Assembly (NCBI GenBank): GCA_015039365.1
Contig: WION01000736.1
Span: forward strand, 1-22,147
Reading direction: 5' to 3'
DNA length: 22,147 nt
From: Amanita rubescens
Lineage: Eukaryota; Basidiomycota; Agaricomycetes; Agaricales; Amanitaceae
Positions 4,905-21,411 of this stretch are shown here, piece by piece. The first letter of the stretch is position 1; every line of letters begins with the position of its first letter. The translations under genes and the position numbers were made by a program. The notes below the pieces were generated by a model. It saw only the letters and a program-made list of their open reading frames with translations. It was not told the origin of the DNA and made no database searches.

Positions 4905-5978
4905 ATGGCGGCCTTCGCAGACAGACCCATCAAGAAGCTCCTTCTCTTCGATGTTGACGGCACTCTTACACCAGCGCGCCAGGTCAGATCCCGTTACCAT
5001 TCAGGTCGAACTATGCTTACACCCTACCCAGGAGGCATCTCAGGAGATGATCTACACTTTGCGCGCTCTACGCAAAAAGTTTGTGATCGGGTTTGTTGGA
5101 GGGTCAGATATGGTCAAAATCTTGGAACAACTGTCAGTAGGGGGTAACGATGGTGCGGTTCATCATTCAGATTCTCGTTGATAAACTGCGGATCTGGTAA
5201 CTTCCGCTAGCCATCCAGGATTTTGACTACGCGTTTGCGGAAAACGGATTAACGGCGTATAAGCTTGGTCAGAAATTGGAATCTCAGTCTTTTATCAAGT
5301 TCGTCGGGGAGGATAGGTATAAAGTGCTAGTCAAGTTTATACTGCACTATATCGCGGATATGGATATACCAATTAAGAGGTATTTGCATGCTACATCCTA
5401 TTCAATATGCTTAAAGTTGCAGAGGAACGTTTATAGAGTTTCGGAACGGGATGATCAACGTCAGTCCCATAGGTCGCAATGCCACGTAAGTCTAGTGGAG
5501 CATTTTGTTTTACGTCGATCTAAAGTCTATTATGGTGTAGCATCAAGGAACGACTTGATTTTCTGGCTTATGACAATGTAAGAAATGCTTCCAATATGTA
5601 TTCCGCGATGCTGAGGCTTGCCTCAGGAACATGGTGTCAGAGCTGCCTTTGTCAAAGTTCTTAAAGAGAAATTCCCAGATTACGGCTTGACGTTCGCGAT
5701 TGGTGGTCAAATTTCGTTTGACGTATTTCCCAACGGGTGGGACAAGACGTACGCACTTAAGCATGTCGAAAACGAAGGGTTTGAAGAGATTCACTTCTTT
5801 GGAGATAAGACATACGAGGTTAGTTTCCGCTGATTGCAAAACTTTGTTTTTAAAATTGTTGTAGGGCGGTAATGATCATGAGATCTACGACGACCCACGA
5901 ACCATTGGTCATGCAGTTACTAGTCCGACAGATACGATACATATTTTAAAAGAGTATTTCCTGGATGTGCAAAACTAG
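4905..5978 (+). CDS. phosphomannomutase (SEC53/PMM2 family)
   Basis: Converts mannose-6-phosphate to mannose-1-phosphate, feeding GDP-mannose for N-glycans, GPI anchors and cell-wall mannans; cytosolic. Seven exons: 4905-4982, 5032-5143, 5211-5379, 5423-5485, 5541-5577, 5627-5818, 5865-5978. Introns are 43-67 nt, all GT-AG. The spliced length is 765 nt, giving 254 residues, normal for eukaryotic PMM. Visible motifs: the HAD nucleophile box [14 protein letters not shown] near residue 13, [82 protein letters not shown] and [13 protein letters not shown]. The acceptor of intron 2 is taken as GCTAG at 5210, because it alone restores the frame into AIQDFDYAF. No frameshift or stop is present, in contrast to its upstream neighbour. 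The gene symbol is left empty because fungal naming varies. Confidence 0.95.
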
Positions 5979-7180
5979 GTAAAGGTATGACTTACCGTAA
6001 CTGTAGTACTACAGGGATCATTAAACGAGATTCGTTGGCATGTATGAGTAGGGCGTAGTGGATCAAAGAACGGATTGGTGCACCATGCCGGCATTGGCAA
6101 AGAACCTACGCGATCTCGCCCTCTCTGACTCGAGGCTCGTGTCGACGCTCCACTTATCAGGAGATACGGCTTTACTACTAGGCGAAGGTTGCGCTATGCA
6201 GGCCGTGAGGCTAGCACAGGGCGGAAAACGAGAGATACGGTGATTGGTACTATGGTAGTGCCTGCCCGTTTCATCACACGCAGCGGACTTCAATGATCCA
6301 CCACTACAAATCCGCTGCCCCCTGTGCACTCTCTGCAACATACCGCCCAATTTCACCATCTGCACCAGCCATATCCTTCCATTGAACGGCCCTGACACTT
6401 CATCGGCTCTACCCTTCCGTACCGAACCCATGAACCAGCAAGGCGTTCGAGTTCTTTCGACTGCACATCTTCAGTCTGATATAGCAAAATTGTTAACCGT
6501 TGTATGTAAACACAAGATATATCGAATATGCAAGCAGATAAGGACACTACGCCTTCTCGAGAAAGCCTGGGCGCGAGGGCGAGCTTCGGTAACAGTCTTG
6601 CTGAGGTCGTCTTCGCATTCTTCGCCACGGTCTTCGAAGACTATTGATCGAGAAAAAGAGCCACGAGTCTGCAGTATGCATGTCCGCTGGCTTAGCTTCT
6701 ATCCTCTATGCTGAGCGATGACGTCAATAATAACTCTGCCAGTGGGTCCTCCCTTTCAACCACGGTTCAGCTGAGGGGGGAATTAGAAAGAAACTTGCCA
6801 TTTCCCCCTCCTTTCTCAGCATTCAATTCGGCTCCGTTTTCACAATGGGGCTAGGAGACGAAGAGATCTCTGAGTGGGTAGGTATAGCCATCAGGTACGA
6901 CCAGTTTCCCTAGCAACGTCGAACATCGTAAAACGAATGCAGGTTTCGAAGCTGATTCTATGGTTCGATGTGGAATAGGATACTATGACCCTTGATAGCC
7001 TTGGCTACTGAGGTCATCTTAGTCATAGTTTTAAGACCTTGTACGAACATGGCACAAAGTCCAACGTCCTACCATCAAAACAAACACTCCGTTTTACTGG
7101 AACACATGCAGTCATTGGCAACATTCACGAACATACAAAGTACGTAACACTACACAAGATCACGACACCTCCGATCTCAT
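5979..7180. other. no confident gene between phosphomannomutase and secreted protein
   Basis: Open frames at 6058-6243 and 6382-6714 (+) and 6063-6431 and 6353-6628 (-) overlap one another and show no family motif. A short ATG exon at 6845-6877 (MGLGDEEISEW) followed by a GTAGGT donor is coding-like but leads nowhere convincing. Part of the stretch should be the 3' UTRs of the flanking convergent genes. Confidence 0.35.
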
Positions 7181-7705
7181 CTAATACTTGCACCAGCCAT
7201 CGCTCTCGGTGATATAGTCAAGAAGTCCAGAGGGTTGAGTCTGGCCACCTTTGTTGATAGCAGTGTTAGAATAGTGGCATGACTTGTACATAGAGCAAGT
7301 AAGATCGGGGCTGCCATTCTGTGCAAATCCGTTAGAACCCATCCACTTGAACAAAAAAGTAAAAGACAGCTGACCTTGCCATTGACATCGTGGTAAGCTA
7401 AAAGAAGCTCAGCGTCGTACATCTTTGCAGTTAGGAATTGGCTTACTGTTGACAAATTTGCAGCCGGAGACCCCATTGCAAGCCGTGAAACAATCTACAA
7501 TCACGAATAAGCGTCGAGCGAAAGAATATACGGCCAGCACCGTACCATAGATAGTTGGGACAAGAACGTAAGTGAGATAGTCCGAGGCCTCAGTGGCTCC
7601 ATTGAGGTTCAAGAAAGTCGGATAGAAGAAACTTCTCTTAGCCACCGTGGCTGCCGAGGCAGCAGAAACAGCGGTGAGAGCGAGGATGAGCGAAGAGAAG
7701 TGCAT
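7181..7705 (-). CDS. small secreted cysteine protein
   Basis: Minus strand, four exons: 7705-7546, 7494-7447, 7397-7375 (23 nt) and 7318-7181; introns 51, 49 and 56 nt, all GT-AG. The total of 369 nt encodes 122 residues. The N-terminus MHFSSLILALTAVSAASA is a clear signal peptide, followed by a dibasic KR (AKR) that could be a Kex2 site. The mature part has six cysteines (IYDCFTACNGVSGCKF, DLTCSMYKSCHYS and DGWCKY at the end) and a conserved-looking INKGGQTQPSGLLDYI segment. The pattern ASDYLTY...C..C....GC...N recalls mushroom secreted proteins sometimes labelled fruit-body specific, but this is from memory and unverified. Role unknown: cell-surface, fruiting or effector-like functions are all possible. 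The frame is intact. Confidence 0.8.
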
Positions 7706-9346
7706 TTCGATCGTAAGACTTGTATCTGAGGACGTGAGTCTGAGGTTGGCTTCGTACGCGCCAGGTTAAATACCCTCAGTGTGTATGTTTCTGTATCTTG
7801 CCGCCCTGGACGCTCACGACTCGTATTGGGCACAGGAACGCCTTCTTGACCTCGTACTCGACAAGTCAGGAAGCTCCGTTGTTTGCGCACGAGATCCGCC
7901 CTGTGGTACATTCCACCAAGTCACTCGATCTTCTGTCTTGGCTCCATCATTCAAAACCTACACGTTACGTAGTTGAAAATGTTACGTTAAGTTGCCCTGA
8001 CCGCTCACCACTCGTGTTCGGGAATCAGGAGATGCCCAAAACGCCGGTGCTTGAGGTTTGTGCCTAGCCTTGGATTTTTCGTTGTGGGGGCCAGCTGCCA
8101 TTTCAACTCACGTTGATTAGCACGAACAGAGGCCCACAAATGTAAGAAAGTAGCCAAGAATAGTTATGACGGGAGGACGGGGGGAGCAATGAACTATTGC
8201 CAGTAGACGGTGACGGCGCCACGCCGCGCGCGCTAGCCGAACAAAAGGCTTGGATCACGGGAGCGTGGCACTACGACACGTGCATCAGGTCCTTCACTTG
8301 AAGCCTTTGTCACTGCAGTCTCACAGATTCCAGAATGTGTGCCTCTGCTCCTTTGCTTGACATTCGCTCGGCAGGGTCCATTACCTGTCCGTCGATCTCT
8401 ACCAATTTCTTATAATAACCCTCACCTCTTTTAGTTCAGTTTCCCTTTTTTGGGTATATTTTCATGTTGTATTTTCCTGAAGCGAACGGCCTTGAGGGGG
8501 CACAAATTCCGTAGCCAATACGAAGCGGAAAAGAATTGTATCACAAGTTAAAGAAAACACTGCGTACGCCAACCCTGTTTTGATGAAATTCAGACTGCAA
8601 GACCGCTGTCAACTTCCCGTGATGTACCTAACGTTTGCCTCGCTTGATGTTACTTGCACGACAGATTATTTGAATCGGCATGGCCAGGTTGACTGTCCCC
8701 ATTTACAAAGAAAAATCATTAGGCTTAAATTTGCCTAACGCCTATATACTCACTCCTTGTTCGTCGGTTTCACAAATCACCCATTTTTGGCGATGGAGCC
8801 CACAAATATTGAGATAATTGGCGGAGTATCCCAAGGTTCGCTACCCGTAAGATGCGGGATCGTTCTACTATCGGCAAGCCCCTAGGCATCCCATTAGTCG
8901 ATCGCGACCGTAGTGAGAGGCACACCTGTAGGCTGTGAATCTACTAGTACTAGGCACAATCGTGTATTTTCACAGATGGATCTTTGAAACAAAAAAAATT
9001 CAAAACGACCGTGAACCGCCTTCAGTCACTGATGCGCGGATTTGCTTGGAGAGCGCACGGCTGAAAGAAAGTTGGGTCGCGTTTCATCAGCCGAGTCGTC
9101 TCCATAGTCCAACCGAGCGATGTTGACGGTGCCACTCATCCTCTTTAAAATCTTTGCCGTTCAAGGCAGGTGGCCCGAGGTCCAGATATACCCCATGAGA
9201 CGGTTCATGTTTGTGGTTCGAGAAACTATCCAATAGACGGGCCAAAAGGTATATACAATGCGTATGGATGACATGTTAGGTGTGGACGGCAATTTCCAGG
9301 ACATGTACACCAGCAAGTTGCCTCCTCTCTTATACGTGACTAGTAC
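7706..9346. other. no confident gene; intergenic
   Basis: This contains the upstream region of the secreted-protein gene and the 3' flank of the acylaminoacyl-peptidase gene. Short open frames (for example 7798-8067 and 8935-9126 on plus) show no motifs and no usable exon chain. A weak imperfect direct repeat (7803-7824 and 7994-8015) is the only structure seen. Confidence 0.35.
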
Positions 9347-11748
9347 CTATTCACTATCCCCTTTTTCCCCAGCGGACTCTAAAAACCAGGCTCTCGCAGC
9401 TTCCCAACACACTCTTTCACACTCTACTCCATTCAGAGGATGAGACTCGCCATCAAACACGAGCATATCCACTCGACTCCCCCCTTTGGCTGTTCCTCTT
9501 CCATTCCGAAGAGCTTTAAGAGTATGGTAATATCCGTATCCTTGAGTAGGGGCAACGCGAAGATCGTCCTTCCCGATGAGGAGGAGAACGTCTGCCGTGA
9601 CTTTATCAGCGAAGCGCAGCGGTGATGCATTATATAGCTTTTGGTATATTTCAGGAACCATGCCTAGCTGAGTTGGGATTGCGTTCTCTGAAGAAACGCC
9701 GCCGTCACTTTGTGAGGAGGAATGTGAAATAGTAGTAGGGGGAGAAGAAGCAATCGGGACTGGGTATTGAAGGCCAAATTCAGCGTAACCCCAGTCAGGG
9801 ATATCACTGGTCGATATTTCGCCAACTGAAATGACGGGGTTACGGAGAGCGGCTGCTGTGAATATATCCGGGAACTGGCCAATCACTATATATATAAATT
9901 CCTGTCAGTATATCGATCCGTCGTATATAGAAAAAGTTGCATACAGTGTGCGCCTAAAAATCCACCGTGGCTTCCACCAAAGAAAAACACCTTTCCTCGG
10001 CCCAACTGGGCGTAACCGAGTTCAACCAAATGATGCAAGGTCTGAATGCAGTCTTGAACGTCCAGTGAACCGCACTTTCCAATCAAGCGGAGAATAGCGG
10101 ATTGGCCATACCCTACTGAACCGGTGTAGTTGGGTAGAGCAACGGTGTCTTGGGAATCAATGATGATTACTATTGAACGTGCAAGGTATTAATGGTAACT
10201 TACACCCTTCCAGAGCGAACGCCGACGTAATCGGGTTGAATTCCGTCGTGGTACCGCTGTGCGGACCACCGTGTGGGGCGAGAATACATCGACTCGCCTG
10301 GCTCGGAAAATTTGAGCGGATGACGACCGCTTCTACAGGGTCCCGGTTGGGAGTAGGTATGATCTTCGTCTCGATGGATAACAATGCAATTCTAAGCTCC
10401 TCGGTGAGCGTTGGCTCGTGTATAACCCGCCAGTCTACGGAACATGTAGCAGAGATGGTACCCAGTAAAACTTGGTGCGGCACGTTGGGGGCGCTTCGTA
10501 CGCAAACGATCCTGTCTTGGTCATCAGTTGTTAAGAGTGTCCAGCTCCAGTTCGATTCGTCTACAGGTGTGAGGTCGATGATCTGGCCTGTTTGGGTATC
10601 TATAAGTAGAATTGTATTTCGGGATCTCCATGTCGACGAAACTACGATCTTTGGTGCGTTCCAGTTGGGGTGATTGACAGTGAATGATGAGGATAAAGTC
10701 CAGGGTGGGTATAAGCCAGGGAACGATTTGGGATCATCGTCTTGTATGATTGGGACTAGAGTCTTAGATTGGGCCAATGGGGAATCGGATAATAAAGGAA
10801 GGTCGAAAGCGTTCAAAGAATTTGTAGACGCATGTGGCCCCCCTGTCTCGCTCGATAGATAAACCAGTTTCGTGCCAGCGGTGCCAGCGGACGAAACAAA
10901 TATGCGTGGAGACCGACATGAGAGATGCGATGGCGTCAACTTGTCCGCCGTGCATTCTCTCGTGGAATATTCATCAAGATCGCTGGTATCTGAGGTAACG
11001 CTTATTCGCCAGATACCGAAGGGCCGATTAAAACAAAATTTGATTCCTAACAGGCGGTCATCGGGCGAAGATTCATACCCAGTGGCATAGAGTTCGGTAT
11101 CAGTATGGTATATGACCTGGCCGAAGTGAACCACGTTCTCAGTTGGAATCGATAGATGATATAGCTTCGGCTTGGTTTCATCTTTTGACCACTGAAGTAT
11201 GAACACGCCGGGCCGTTTGAAGCTTGGAAGACCTTCACCAAACGAGGGCGTGTATCTGAATTTGGCGAACGCATCATCTGAAGAAGATGGTGGGTTCTTC
11301 TCTGCGATGTAGAGTAGGGAAGTTTCGGACGGGGAAAATGTGATTGACGATATGAATTCTACATCGCGCTGAGCAGCGATAGGCAAATAAAGGGAGAAAA
11401 CGCACCGTCTGAGTAAAACTGGCCATGTGCACGAGTCACATCCCTACACGCTACCAACCGGTCGTTGTTCCAGATCTCTACAAATCGACCAGAGCCCCCG
11501 GTCTTTGAAGCGTCCCGGAGAATAGCCCGGAAAGATCGGGATGGGGATACGAGCGACAAGACGATATCATTCGGCACATCTTCAAGTGCGGTCGAGATTG
11601 TCGGAGGAGGTAATGCCACGGATTTGGTGACAACGCGTTTCACATTTCGTTCATGATCCCGGACACTGAACACGATGCGTAGAGACGATTGTGACAGGAA
11701 TTGGGCCGATGTAGGCTGGGGAAGGGCTGATAGTTGGTTGTAGTACAT
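9347..11748 (-). CDS. acylaminoacyl-peptidase (prolyl oligopeptidase family S9C)
   Basis: Serine peptidase that releases N-acylated amino acids from blocked peptides; cytosolic in eukaryotes. Minus strand, four exons: 11748-11406, 11358-10204, 10148-9945, 9885-9347; introns 47, 55 and 59 nt. The total of 2241 nt encodes 746 residues, near the family length of about 730. N-terminal beta-propeller region: FSVRDHERNVKRVV, GRFVEIWNNDRLV, ISSITFSPSETSLLYIAE and ESNWSWTLLTTDDQDRI. C-terminal alpha/beta-hydrolase region: ILAPHGGPHSGTTTEFNPIT, ALPNYTGSVGYGQ, nucleophile Ser559 in GGSHGG, Asp675 in GKDDLRV and His716 in GESHPLNGVE. The acceptor at 11359 (GATGTAG) is chosen because it alone keeps frame into DEFISSITF. 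The open frame continues upstream of 11748 to 11877, so an earlier start is possible, but MYYNQLSALPQPT matches the family N-terminus. The gene is intact. A divergent neighbour starts near 11922. Confidence 0.93.
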
Positions 11749-16621: not shown

Positions 16622-17926
16622 ATGGAAGATACTCATACAACTAGCATGCTTCTATCAAGTAGGCGGCCAATATATGCATTTCTATTCCCTTCCCAAAATT
16701 TGACTAATGTATTTGGATATAGATGACTCAGAGAAACATGTCAGAATGCTCAAAGATCAATACCTATGTCCCCATTTTCGTATCCTTGTTATAGGAAGGG
16801 CCAATGCTGGCAAAACAACCATCCTTGAGAAGCTTTGTGGTGTAGCAAGGGGAACAAAGCCTATCATATATGACAAGGATGGTAAGCCTGCCTCAAATTT
16901 CTGCTTTAAAATTCTTAGTTCTTTGTAGGTAAAAAAGCTTTTACCCACTGGGTCTCATTTGATTTCATCAATTGAGGTAAGTTGACTTGTGACATCTCAA
17001 CATACTTTATTCATATCCAGTTACATATCACCAGAGAGGCCTTCATGATATTGAGCATCAAATTACATTTGATGGAAGTGATTTTATCTTCCATGACTCT
17101 CAAGGTTTTGAATCTGGTGCAACTGAGGAATTGGAGATTGTTTGGGACTTCATTGAAAAGAGGTCTGGAGAAACTGAGATAAAGAATCAGTTGCATGCAA
17201 TTTGGTATATTCCTTGTGCTTTTAGCATCACATTCCTGATCTGGCTTATTGTACAATGTAGGTACTGCATCCCCATGGATGGCCCTCGGCCCATTCTACC
17301 TGCAGAGCTTGCATTTTTTACAAAAGGGACTGGCAAAGGTAAATATTTATTGCTCAAATTGGCTTCTACCTGCCCCAAAATCTATGATGCCAGTGTGTTA
17401 ACAAATTCATATAACCTTGCAGTTCCTTTGGTAGTTGTGTTTACCAAATTTGATGGTCAAATCATCAATGAATATGTTACCTTAATGGATCCATACATTG
17501 AAGATAAGTGGGAAATGGCTAGGAACAATGCTGAACACACTTTTCAAAAGGTTTATCTTCCCAAAGTCTTAGATGCCAAATATCCTCCTAAGGCATATGT
17601 GCGATTGGAAGGTGAGAAGGCAAGCATTCCATCTCTCTAGTAACATAAATAATGTTGCTTGAAAAATAGACATGGATTTACCAGAGAAGCACTGTCCTGA
17701 ATTAGCTCAACAGACTGCTGATGCAATTGATGATGAAAGCTTACATCATTTGTTTGTCTCAACACAGAAGAACAACCTTGATCTCTGTGTTAAGGCTGCA
17801 TTTCAGTGAGGTTCATATTAAAGCATTTCTTTTCATGCACTGACCATTCTCAGAGCAGTCATCAATAATAATTTCACATGGGAAGACACTGCTATTGTTG
17901 TTCTTAGCAAATTTCCACATTACTGG
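16622..17926 (+). CDS. P-loop GTPase-domain protein, 5' part (gene continues)
   Basis: Fungal-type P-loop GTPase, a family expanded in mushrooms; cellular role unknown. Exons: 16622-16658, 16723-16881, 16929-16976, 17035-17204, 17262-17338, 17423-17611, 17670-17805, 17854-17926. The first exon (MEDTHTTSMLLS) splices in phase to DSEKHVRMLKDQY; the ATG at 16707 lies in that first intron. G1/P-loop is VIGRANAGKTTILEK, G3-like is FHDSQGFESG, G4 is VVVFTKFDGQ, and a G5-like LFVSTQ follows. Other markers: NQLHAIWYCIPMDGPRP, KYPPKAYVRLEDMDLPEKHC and NNNFTWEDTAIVVLSKFPHYW. Exon 3 needs one A fewer in the A6 run at 16931-16936 to read KKLLPTGSHLISSIE. After FPHYW the gene runs through a GTATGC donor (17927) into the microexon-like array; a likely C-terminal exon lies at 21247. 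Base composition is more AT-rich than in the genes to the left. Confidence 0.85.
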
Positions 17927-18052
17927 GTATGCATAGTTTGTTAAATATCTGCACAGCAATGTAGAAAGAATTGAATTGGGAACAGTTCCGCAGGCAGGCA
18001 GGTGTCCAATTTTATATGACATGCTAAACATTCACAAAATATGCAACAGCAT
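17927..18052 (+). other. transition from GTPase exon into the array
   Basis: The donor GTATGC at 17927 follows the FPHYW codons. The nearest good acceptors are CACAG (17955) and the CAG series within GCAGGCAGGCAG (17991-18001), followed by a possible donor GTGTCC at 18002. The next AACAG ends at 18049 and is followed by CAT and a GCAAGT donor at 18053. The exact splice choice in this short stretch cannot be fixed by eye. Confidence 0.35.
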
Positions 18053-18115
18053 GCAAGTAACACTGTGATTTATTTGCATGTGCCCTAATTAGCCTTGTGC
18101 TAGATGTCTGTTACA

Positions 18116-18132
18116 GAAATGAAAGAAATTCA
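18116..18132 (+). other. possible 17-nt exon inside the array
   Basis: The first long interval (18053-18183) can be split by an acceptor TTACAG ending at 18115 and a donor GTGTAT at 18133 after TTCAG, leaving a 17-nt piece. This is the one candidate spacer in the array whose length is not a multiple of three, so it may instead be intronic. Confidence 0.25.
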
Positions 18133-20905
18133 GGTGTATTCTATCACATACCATTTGTACAAAGTTTAATGATTGGATGACAGTGGGTGAGCAAAATACA
18201 ATCACTCATAAATATCATGCCTTGTCTCATGGCCACCAGTTTGTGAGTCATGCTTCTCTTAGTTATGTAAAAGTCTTGTCCCATGATCAACAGGAAGTGA
18301 GTGTGCCACTCAATTCCTGACAGGTACTAGTCCCATGGCTCATGATATGACCAACAGACAGTGAGTAAATCTACCTTTTAAACAGTATTATCACACCATA
18401 TTCTACAATTAAAAGGCAGTCAGTCTCACAACATTTTCCTGAATTTTGGGGCTCACACTATATCACATTCTATTACATCAAGAAAGTGAGTGACACCAAC
18501 ATTTTTTTAACATCTACCCTGATTCAATGAGCAACAGAATGTTTGTGACATTATACTTATATTTGGACAAATCTTGTTTAATTACATCTTAACAATAGCG
18601 AGTAAGTGACTGTCCATCCAACTACTGATATTCATTCTAAGCACTCAATAAAACAGGCAGTGAGTGGAGACCTACATTGTCTTCTTGGCAGTCTCTTCAC
18701 ACTGACTACATGAACAAAAGAAAGTGAGTGGTGACAGTACTGTCCACTCCTATGCTAGAATTTATTATGTCCTTATGTCACACAGTCAGTAAGTAATCCC
18801 ATCATGCACTTTGGCAGGCATCTTATAACAGCTTGTGGTCACATGAACAACAGTATGTGAGTGAACTTGCACCTTTTTCTGAAACAAACTCTGAGGAAAT
18901 ATTTATCATATAACCAGTCTGTGGGTAACATTAGACATTTGTCTGAAAGAAAGCTTCATCACCCCTTCTCCCCACAATGGACAGCATGCAAGTGTCATTT
19001 ATCTCTCTAGAAGGCAACCTCATCACATCATGACGATTTTCCATGACAAATAGGAAGTGATTGACATTGCACTATTTTCTGAAAGCAATCTTATGACATT
19101 TGTTTCTGTGTCTAACAGGATGTGAGTGATATAGACATTTCTCTGATTGCAATCATCACAGCTCAATTCATATGGTCAACAGCATGTCAGTGACATTACT
19201 ACAGATCTTTCTGATACTTAACCTCATTATATTCTTCCTTTGGTTAACAGTATGTGAGTGACATTTAACAGTTGTCTGGAACAAATCTTCATTGTATGTA
19301 TTTCTCTGTGGCCAACAGTTTGTCAGTTACAATTTTCTGCAATTCAGTTTCATCACTGGTTTTTCTATCACCAACAGGCAGTGAGTGAACAGTTTTGAAG
19401 TTTTTATCAGTCTCATCACACAATTTCACATCCCCAATAGTTTGTGAGTGACATTTCATATTTTCTGAAAGGTAGCCTGATCACATATTACTCTGTTATC
19501 ATCAACAGGGAGTGAGTCTGCACAGTTTTCTGGTCTTCACACTTATCACATTGTTTTCTACTGCCTACAGTATGTAAGTGAACATATTGCTAGTAAGAGG
19601 TGACTTTACCGCATCCTTTGCTGCTACCAGTTTGTCAGTGATGCTGTACATTTTTCTGGAAAACTGTTTCATTGCCTTGTCCTACAATCAACAGCGTGTG
19701 AGTGGCAGAGCATCTTCCAGAAAAGCAATCTCAGAATGTAATAAACAGGGAGTGAGTATCATCATGCAAAATTCTCAAGGGAGTCTTATCACCTAGCAAT
19801 CACATGATAACTTCTTCTATGACTAACAGGCAGTAAGGGAATTATACATTTTCTAAAAGCAATTTTATTACATACAATCTTTCTTCAACAAATAGCATGG
19901 AGTTAGTGTACTTGCATGATTTTCTTCAAGGAAGCCTCATCATGTGTTATTTTCTTGGCCAACAGCCTGAAGTGAGTTCTGTGTATTGTGCATTTCTCTG
20001 AAATACAGTCTTATGGCATATTTTCCTATGACCAACAGCCAACAGTGAGTGGAATAAGATTACAATCCCCTGAGGTGTAGTTTTTTGACATTTTTCCTAA
20101 CCAACAGAAAGGAATTGTGGGTCACATTATACATATATAATTTCTTGAAACCCTCATATATTTCTTTTCCTTCACCAACAGTTTGTGGGTGGCAGTGCAC
20201 ATCATTCTGGAAAATAACCTCATTGTATATTCTGCAATGCACAACAGCCAGTGAGTAGTCTTACTATTAAAAGGCAGTATCATCACATCATTTCCTGTCT
20301 TCAGAAGGTAGTGGGTTATATTGTAACACATTTGTGAACAGGAGTCACATTATATCTGTTTCATAATCAATAGGGAGTGAGTGTCATTCTGCACTTTGAA
20401 TGGCAGGCTGGTTCATCACATCTTCTCCTAGCATGCCCAACAGCAAGTGTGTGGCATTGCACATCTCATAAATTCAATTTTATAGCACATTCTCATCATT
20501 AACAGCATGTGTGTGATATTTTACCCTTGTTCTAAAGTTAATTACATTTTGTCCATCTCCAACAGGAAGTAAGTGATATGATTTAAGGGAAGGAAGTCAC
20601 ATCTGAGTCACATCTATACAATTGAAAGTTTGTGAGTGATATTGTGCAATTTATGTATGGGGATTCCCATGACCAACAGGGAGTGAGTGAGACTGAACAT
20701 CTTTATGTTACCAAAATCCATGATACTTCTAATGACAACAGAAAGTGAGTGGCACTAAAACTTTTGAGCATGAGCCTCATTATATTCCAACCCATCAATG
20801 CTTGATGTATCATTTGAGTGTAACAGGAAGTGAGCAGCATACAAGTGTCTTTCTGTGCTTTCCCCATTTTTACTGCTACCCATAGATTGTAAGATTGCTT
20901 TTCAG

Positions 20906-20938
20906 TTTGTCTAATTCCTGAGCTTTGTGTCTTCCCCG
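20906..20938 (+). other. possible larger exon near the right end of the array
   Basis: A TTTTCAG acceptor ends at 20905 and a GTGAGT donor starts at 20939. Between them lie 33 nt, open in one frame (CLIPELCVFP). If used, the preceding intron would run from 20830 to 20905 and the weak ATT spacer at 20886 would be intronic. The next unit runs from 20939 to the acceptor CTAG at 20993. Confidence 0.3.
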
Positions 20939-21246
20939 GTGAGTGATATCAGCATGAGATTTATTAATACTGTGACATTTATCTATATGCTAGTTTGTAA
21001 GTCAGAAGTCCACTTCTGCATTTGAAATCTGATTTTTATAAAATAAAAGGGACCACTTTGTCTTTGTTTGGAGATGTTCCAAACAAATTTTCAATAACTG
21101 TATGCATTACTCTTACCCTTGTGGTAAATAACTGATATCAGGACAATTGAAGCCCACAGCCTGCCAAGTTTTAATTTGTAAAAGTTGCTTCTCTTCACTA
21201 ACTCTCTTCATGCTAATGCATTCAAGCAATGAATATTATTGCTAAG

Positions 21247-21411
21247 CTATCATTTGGATTGGCAAACCATTCCGGGAATCAGTCATGAAGGCTTTTGAGA
21301 AATTTAAGAGAGAGGGCTATGTGCAGAAACTGAAAATGGCCATTACTTTGCAGGCCATAAATTTGAGCAAGGAAGACTTAGTTGTATTTATGTGCCAGCA
21401 TGTGATTGATG
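21247..21411 (+). CDS. likely C-terminal exon of the GTPase gene
   Basis: After an acceptor GCTAAG (21246) one frame stays open for 165 nt (IIWIGKPFRESVMKAFEKF, then REGYVQKLKMAITLQ and INLSKEDLVVFMCQHVID), ending at a GTACGT donor at 21412. Its codons resemble those of the upstream GTPase exons in AT bias. An amphipathic C-terminal helix region of this type is what I would expect at the end of such GTPases. A further acceptor (GAGGCAG, 21461) would add a short last exon with a TGA at 21503-21505. How the exon connects to the array (21003-21246) is unresolved. A candidate exon at 21050-21123 (TTLSLFGDVPNKFSITVCIT) is open but its downstream joins are out of phase. Confidence 0.5.

Follow-up and report, generated by a model that had tools for sequence, protein, structure and literature searches.

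The middle segment of a predicted GTPase gene of Amanita rubescens is very likely assembled from 40 one-codon exons and six exons of 2-10 codons, spliced and translated as written. The gene lies in the window, the 22,147-nt stretch analysed here, which is the whole of contig C689 in an assembly of 75.7 Mb and 786 contigs. Between positions 18050 and 20996 of its forward (+) strand we find 46 exons, 40 of 3 nt, three of 6 nt and one each of 9, 15 and 30 nt, and all 47 introns from 17998 to 21049 begin with GT or, in three cases, with GC and end with AG. Intron length is 48-82 nt in 46 of the 47 and 105 nt in the remaining one; the last two codon exons (I, 3 nt, and F, 20994-20996) were placed by comparison with a twin locus, L048 on contig C328, which is 99.7% identical to the window over 5,197 nt. 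Read without splicing, all three frames across the array are closed, with 53-59 stops in 3 kb. The 40 exons of 3 nt are spliceosomal microexons in the sense of very few nucleotides between GT(GC)-AG introns. Their donors read GTGAGT in 21 of 47 introns, so that splice strength seems to reside on the intron side and the codon is left free. Tandem Repeats Finder reported no array at this site, presumably because the introns of the window are too diverged. The array is real as described, and reparsing the window returned the spacer counts of a preliminary description of this DNA (40 of 3 nt, three of 6 nt, one of 9 nt).

Support for splicing and translation comes from two intronless proteins that carry the array residues in order. 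A protein search with a composite query gave 775 matches, and the best 120, which were examined, include P0116, a protein of 285 aa on a 1,099-nt JGI contig that reads through the array from the GTPase exons to the C-terminal exon. Its spliced alignment with L048 is free of stops, has a single residue gap and yields 53 exons, 40 of them of 3 nt. In the array part 51 of 53 residues are matched at a score of 397, compared to 18-23 residues and scores of 53-94 for eight permutations of these residues, and to 15-25 residues and scores of 124-192 when they are aligned with four other arrays as a wrong-locus control. Similarly, residues 171-478 of P0041 (478 aa, 1,486-nt contig) align with locus L015 via 61 exons, 46 of which are 3 nt long; here 39 of 47 array residues are matched versus 17-23 in eight permutations. 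The two contigs are taken as cDNA because ordinary introns are absent from them too, and with their RNA origin inferred in this way both place the array codons in mature RNA. P0116 furthermore overrules two predicted boundaries, which makes it unlike a sequence derived from a prediction. The preliminary description had proposed that the codons are joined one by one into a protein segment between the GTPase and C-terminal exons, and had named a transcript skipping or retaining the array as the finding to set against this; P0116 instead joins the codons in order, which supports that interpretation. The exon list of that description stood in its counts and fell at the two boundaries: the codon near 20305 reads AAG (K) instead of GTA, and CAA near 20444 closes a 15-nt HAQQQ exon.

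What had not been foreseen, apart from these boundaries and from frame breaks in the window copy described below, is that this array has many counterparts in a large family and that unit introns can be identical while the codons between them differ. At least 150 genomic matches exist to one GTPase exon, a figure that counts near-duplicate contigs and comes from scoring 150 of 256 candidates. The pattern ACAG-N3-GTGAGTGAC occurs 2,254 times genome-wide and its reversed-pattern control four times; with the same flanks, spacers of 2, 4 and 6 nt are found 16, 10 and 26 times (controls 0, 2 and 10), and 3-nt spacers account for 2,254 of the 2,306 strict matches of these four lengths. A chain parser was trained on donor and acceptor letters, with neither a multiple-of-three rule nor a stop rule; its training pairs were chosen with a 3-nt spacer, and donor and acceptor were scored separately. 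Chains scoring at least 150 comprise 667 exons from 17 of 18 loci (none from L017; near-identical twin L048 included), of which 624 are 3 nt long, 12 are 6 nt, seven are 9 nt, and 12 are not a multiple of three. Extrapolation from the ratio of parsed units to strict matches (949/404) in the loci that were read gives about 5,300 units genome-wide, an estimate that includes near-duplicate loci and under-counts old arrays, the window having only one strict match.

The decoded residues are shared among many places. Behind the ..FPHFW exon we decoded 49 stretches from 38 genomic places, and adjacent single-codon exons W and F are present in 34 of the 38, W-F-E in 28 and W-F-E-Q-G-K in 15. Among the other four places, L043 has almost no chain, L016 reads L-F, and L015 and L054 are restored to W-F by P0041 and P0116, respectively. 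The third codon is GAA in 17 of 20 non-redundant stretches (W-F-anchored, those two codons being given), and the intron interiors are 80.7% identical. The array is followed by AAA, ATT, a 0-nt AG^GT site, a further codon and exons of the ELFSMFGD, PTDCQVL and IIIIAKLSFW types. Read by eye, these downstream constant exons are in the frame of the array, as is confirmed for L048 by P0116. Arrays ending in TGA or TAA, suggested by a loose pattern match, were rejected, as conserved constant exons were found downstream. Codon use in 715 parsed single-codon exons is narrow, led by GAA, CAA, GGA, CGA, CTT, TTT, AAA, TAT and GAT; a G or C in third position is rare, at 5% of the 715, which may reflect splice-site competition.

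The exons of the predicted GTPase gene in the window are the following.

16722..16881 (start approximate), + strand: GTPase exon with the P-loop (GRANAGKTTILEK), read by eye and by paralog alignment.
16929..16976, + strand: GTPase exon 2, with one base more than its counterpart in the twin locus (L061), a frame break in the window copy.
17035..17204, + strand: GTPase exon 3 (RGLHDIEHQITFDGSDFIFHD..), read by eye and by paralog alignment.
17262..17338, + strand: GTPase exon 4 (YCIPMDGPRPILPAEL..), read by eye and by paralog alignment.
17422..17611, + strand: GTPase exon 5 (VPLVVVFTKFDGQ..), from genome exon matches and the spliced alignment of P0116.
17670..17805, + strand: exon DMDLPEKHCPEL.., from the spliced alignment of P0116.
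17854..17926, + strand: last constant exon ahead of the array (..VVLSKFPHYW), from locus comparison and the spliced alignment of P0116.
17986..17997, + strand: 12-nt exon FRRQ, from the spliced alignment of P0116 and the window parse.
18050..18052, + strand: first single-codon exon (H), from the same two sources.
18104..18133, + strand: 30-nt exon MSVTEMKEIQ, from the same two sources.
18184..19832, + strand: 27 consecutive single-codon exons separated by introns, W F E T A K N R A K S Y S H E D H Y F A F G Y F R G A, from the parse and P0116.
19896..20116, + strand: 6-nt exons HG, PE and PT and 9-nt exon KGI, from the parse and the alignment of P0116.
20182..20376, + strand: single-codon exons F P K G, from the parse, with K taken from P0116.
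20432..20446, + strand: 15-nt exon HAQQQ, its acceptor given by P0116.
20506..20996, + strand: single-codon exons H E F G K E I F, the end of the array, with I and F carried over from the twin L048.
21050..21099, + strand: constant exon GPLLSLFGDVPNKFSIT (the GPLLSLF exon), one base shorter than in the twin, a frame break in the window copy.
21153..21177, + strand: 25-nt constant exon PTACQVLI, phase 1, from the spliced alignment of P0116.
21227..21411, + strand: C-terminal exon (MNIIAKLSFWIGKPFRESVMKAFEKFKREGYVQKLK..), one base short of its counterpart in the twin, boundaries read by eye.

A number of observations weigh against the reading that the array is spliced, translated and kept by selection. 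The window copy differs from its twin (L048/L061) by three frame-breaking single bases, in 16929-16976, 21050-21099 and 21227-21411, all of which sit in homopolymers; an assembly error or decay may lie behind them. Aligned with the window itself, P0116 gives 51 exons, only 37 of 3 nt, and 8 residue gaps, which we ascribe to these frame breaks in the flanking exons, and it is not letter for letter the window gene, as it mixes features of L048 and L054. P0041 likewise has 8 residue gaps against L015, where its poorly fitting C-terminal exon reads one stop. That the P0116 contig is cDNA is very likely, judged from the absent introns; a search with its array region (3 candidates) found only P0116 itself and no second independent sequence. 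A search with the C-terminal region of P0041 (130 candidates) similarly found only P0041. Short frame-breaking exons of 2 or 4 nt were parsed five times, all in L051, and C749:2134-4148, perhaps a decaying array, contains ten of the genome's 16 strict matches with a 2-nt spacer and three of its ten with a 4-nt spacer. The 0-nt AG^GT site (AG^GTGAGT-like) near the array end is found in 9 of 12 loci and is absent from the window, L050 and L051. Stops are missing from all 715 single-codon exons, where 38.9 are expected from position-wise base frequencies, and the 2,254 strict matches contain one TAA/TGA and no TAG, but the depletion of TAA and TGA is confounded because AG-TRA-GT makes a rival donor. 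As a test of selection, the first four codons are of no help, since their 2 synonymous versus 151 non-synonymous pairwise differences stem mostly from the free fourth codon. Coiled-coil or heptad periodicity of the array peptides is weak (z of 2.1 at lag 6 and 1.8 at lag 7). Finally, in P0076, a gene model annotated on a 976,794-nt contig of A. rubescens, an ..FPHYW exon runs directly into C-terminal exons and array residues are lacking; this may represent a skipped array, a gene without array or a mis-annotation.

The last observation is what one would expect if the array were a diverged minisatellite in one giant intron, never spliced into codons. In several loci the units are clearly tandem-duplicated and nearly identical, and skipping the array would keep the frame, as phase 0 is found both before it and in the exon after it. 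Such a minisatellite is contradicted by the intronless P0116 and P0041, which carry the codons in order; strict matches are moreover overwhelmingly of 3-nt spacing and single-codon residues are common to many places, and we regard it as scarcely credible.

For the splicing of the array we propose intron definition, in which every intron of 48-82 nt would be recognised as a whole, and stepwise removal, probably 5' to 3' during transcription, with the upstream exon growing by one codon per step. Stepwise removal is suggested because 3 nt leave no room for the spliceosomes of both adjoining introns at the same time, and exon definition would be excluded because such an exon cannot be bridged. P0024 shows a spliced 5' array followed by 19 last residues that read as a retained unit intron (best 10 of 19 residues, mean 4.3); a retained intron translated to the protein end would fit a 5' to 3' order, in one case. 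The 0-nt AG^GT site resembles a recursive-splicing site. A U1 snRNA search with RF00003 had no match, and since the control likewise had none the result is uninformative.

Tiny exons have been described before. In Arabidopsis APC11 contains a 1-nt exon for which intron definition and recursive splicing were proposed, and that report argues likewise that the tiny exon is not bridged and that simultaneous splicing of the introns on its two sides is improbable (PMC4674806). Further reports describe a plant microexon survey (PMC8831610), a 1-nt exon in Fusarium CYP621A (PMC12940212) and a 3-bp exon in Drosophila hth (PMC7392893). These microexons resemble those of A. rubescens as tiny exons between canonical introns that annotation misses; as described they come singly or as neighbouring pairs, whereas A. 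rubescens has 40 single-codon exons nearly in a row, recurring in many genes. Single microexons of 1-6 nt are already known. Among the matches listed by literature searches in open-licence PMC papers, which leave subscription journals and preprints mostly outside, no report of arrays of one-codon exons was seen. The present array points to dozens of nearly consecutive one-codon exons being joined accurately, far more than the single microexons that these searches brought up, and genes of this kind would lend themselves to studies of intron definition and of the order of splicing.

The comparison of loci informs us on how the arrays may change. The introns of the window array are old and diverged; in L014, L050, L051, L056 and L057 many are near-identical while the codons differ. 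L050, L051, L056 and L057 are 97.3-99.7% identical in their flanks and have a common modal 62-nt intron with 20-41 copies each and 352 exact copies in the genome. The array residues of these four loci match no better than shuffled ones (P of 0.11-0.78, 200 shuffles each). Within four young arrays, in units whose intron is more than 85% identical to the modal one, the introns agree to 99.1-99.5% versus 41-70% for the codon bases. The intronless proteins P0032 and P0042 agree in 279 of 293 positions before the array and 85 of 90 after it versus 35 of 79 within. L058, L059 and L060, on the other hand, agree in 56-57 codons, which is all but one. The difference is a single GGA unit that is present in L058 and missing from L060, where the intron at this point resembles a hybrid of the L058 introns on either side of the unit; otherwise L060 is less close (96.6% over 4,241 nt, 76% in the 600 nt compared behind the array). 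Adjacent identical codons number 88 of 740 (shuffled mean 64.8, maximum 86) and repeated codon 4-mers nine (mean 1.4, maximum 8), both beyond the values of 500 shuffles. Unit recombination together with selection would explain both outcomes, codons that persist between some copies and codons that are exchanged completely between others.

As we propose, the repeating unit would be one intron plus one codon. Homologous exchange between units would homogenise the introns within and between gene copies, the gain or loss of a unit would change exactly one residue in frame, and selection would keep the codons diverse. The outcome would be a protein whose GTPase domain and helical C-terminal part are conserved and enclose a segment that is hypervariable. 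Taken as a whole, an array spliced and translated as written by stepwise intron-definition splicing, unit recombination plus selection, and a conjectured recognition surface is the explanation that we consider probable with good confidence.

A similar mode of change is known from Podospora anserina, where the unit of the hnwd genes is a WD repeat of about 42 residues. As described for the WD-repeat arrays of het-d, het-e and het-r (PMC1805685, PMC2873952), these fungal NTPase genes are alike in that units are homogenised within and between genes, specific codons diversify, and units are lost and duplicated. They differ in that their framework is coding, whereas in A. rubescens it is an intron and each unit adds one residue, and in their domain architecture. 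Homogenisation of the framework is found in L050, L051, L056 and L057 with their modal 62-nt intron, and not in the old array of the window. Array residues are unrelated between near-identical paralogs, and hypervariable codons under positive selection may likewise be present. A STAND/NACHT NTPase with WD repeats was not recovered, the Pfam matches being a weak P-loop GTPase and others below threshold. Schistosome micro-exon genes and aphid bicycle genes have exons longer than one codon and are not known to contain single-codon arrays. Both are alike in making fast-evolving proteins from many small exons (PMC4671649, PMC9168663); their products are putative secreted effectors, unlike the A. 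rubescens family.

Three other accounts of the codons deserve attention. Under the first, the array would be spliced and translated, but with a codon content that is neutral filler, the segment being a functionless disordered linker free to lengthen, shorten and drift. The frame-breaking units in L051, the low-complexity composition of young arrays and a pLDDT below 50 in most of the P0041 array segment would suit this view. Pointing away from it, the first 28 array exons of the window and L054 differ in none of 87 bases where 2.8 are expected at the intron rate (introns 96.8% identical), which is weak, and further along the two arrays do differ (PE-PT-KGI versus E-PA-NRN); in addition, the codons of L058, L059 and L060 agree, yet those of other copies with flanks of 97-99.7% identity differ completely. 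Neutral filler appears rather unlikely to us.

The second account invokes mobile elements. Fungal introner-like elements are inserted singly into many genes. They are near-identical spliceosomal introns in many copies (PMC4457414), and in this they resemble the unit introns of A. rubescens. A mobile unit intron inserting with a 3-bp target duplication into a one-codon exon would add an in-frame codon copy each time, and both the 352 identical copies of one intron and the excess of identical neighbouring codons are in line with this. Unlike introner-like elements, however, the A. rubescens introns stand in tandem at one-codon spacing in one gene family: among the first-listed of the 352 exact copies, those on C13, C79 and C82 are tandem and, by coordinates, downstream of GTPase exons, and one on C12 is isolated. 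Block repeats and the hybrid-looking L060 intron point to recombination instead, and insertion is in our judgement an unlikely source of the codons.

We know of no enzyme or template for targeted codon writing, and none was looked for. As a third account, a dedicated process could nevertheless change or write the three bases between AG and GT as units are copied, which would fit the contrast between introns and codon bases in near-modal units of four arrays and the unrelated codon strings of four near-identical copies. The stability of codons between L058, L059 and L060 speaks against it, and only 5-11 codon types per young array fit shuffling plus selection; we hold such writing to be very improbable.

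Recombination of units with selection on the codons leads to a more far-reaching and tentative idea, which we find conceivable without favouring it, namely that a hypervariable recognition segment is encoded in the gene family by a string of interchangeable one-codon cassettes, with identical introns as universal recombination handles. If true, every exchange would swap, add or remove one amino acid in frame, the spliceosome would read the string out, and the family would be a diversity-generating system at single-residue resolution. This suggests an evolutionary route in which introns turn each recombination event into an in-frame one-residue change.

For the protein, an AlphaFold2 model of P0041 built from a 30-row alignment has a mean pLDDT of 78.2 and a pTM of 0.80. 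Residues 316-359, with pLDDT below 50, cover most of the array segment (327-374), which in the model would be a flexible or unmodelled stretch between the GTPase fold and a helical C-terminal part. The best Foldseek matches are IRG immunity GTPases (IIGP1/Irga6, PDB 1tq6) and dynamin-like proteins at E of about 1e-4, with TM-scores of about 0.2-0.4 and 9-14% identity; TM is below 0.5 for the best 50 of 547 matches. The likeness to these GTPases thus lies in the best structural matches of the model, and low TM, low identity and Pfam scores below curated cut-offs set the family apart. MMR_HSR1 reached 20.3 bits against a cut-off of 21.9 (query typed by hand), and a scan of five GTPase sequences passed no curated Pfam cut-off (MMR_HSR1 at 16.1-19.6 bits or no match). 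P0041, P0042 and P0115 have sub-threshold matches to MMR_HSR1 or Arf, whereas P0116 has none; for some relatives a precomputed PF01926 assignment exists. A recognition GTPase would be our guess, based on the size of the family, its hypervariability and the weak fold link. It is likewise a guess that members of this large P-loop GTPase family use the hypervariable segment as a surface for recognition or interaction.

Annotated gene models examined here miss the array, and the protein segment is therefore probably missing from databases. Seven picked A. rubescens proteins all end ahead of it, the terminal residues of the models P0001 and P0119 do not follow it, and the Hebeloma protein P0102 ends exactly at ..FPNFW, where an array would start.

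Elsewhere in the genome, L009 4747-9942 and L010 1309-3741 (C3:126747-135741) form a very long array of about 76 + 36 introns, with a match to the C-terminal exon between its two parts (L010 542-676); together with a GTPase exon at C3:115096 it may constitute one giant gene. In L014 more than 1 kb of repeat-like sequence (7642-9391) separates the array end from the C-terminal exon and is absent from the close copy L049. The window further contains, at 4906-5980, exons that, read by eye, may encode a phosphomannomutase.

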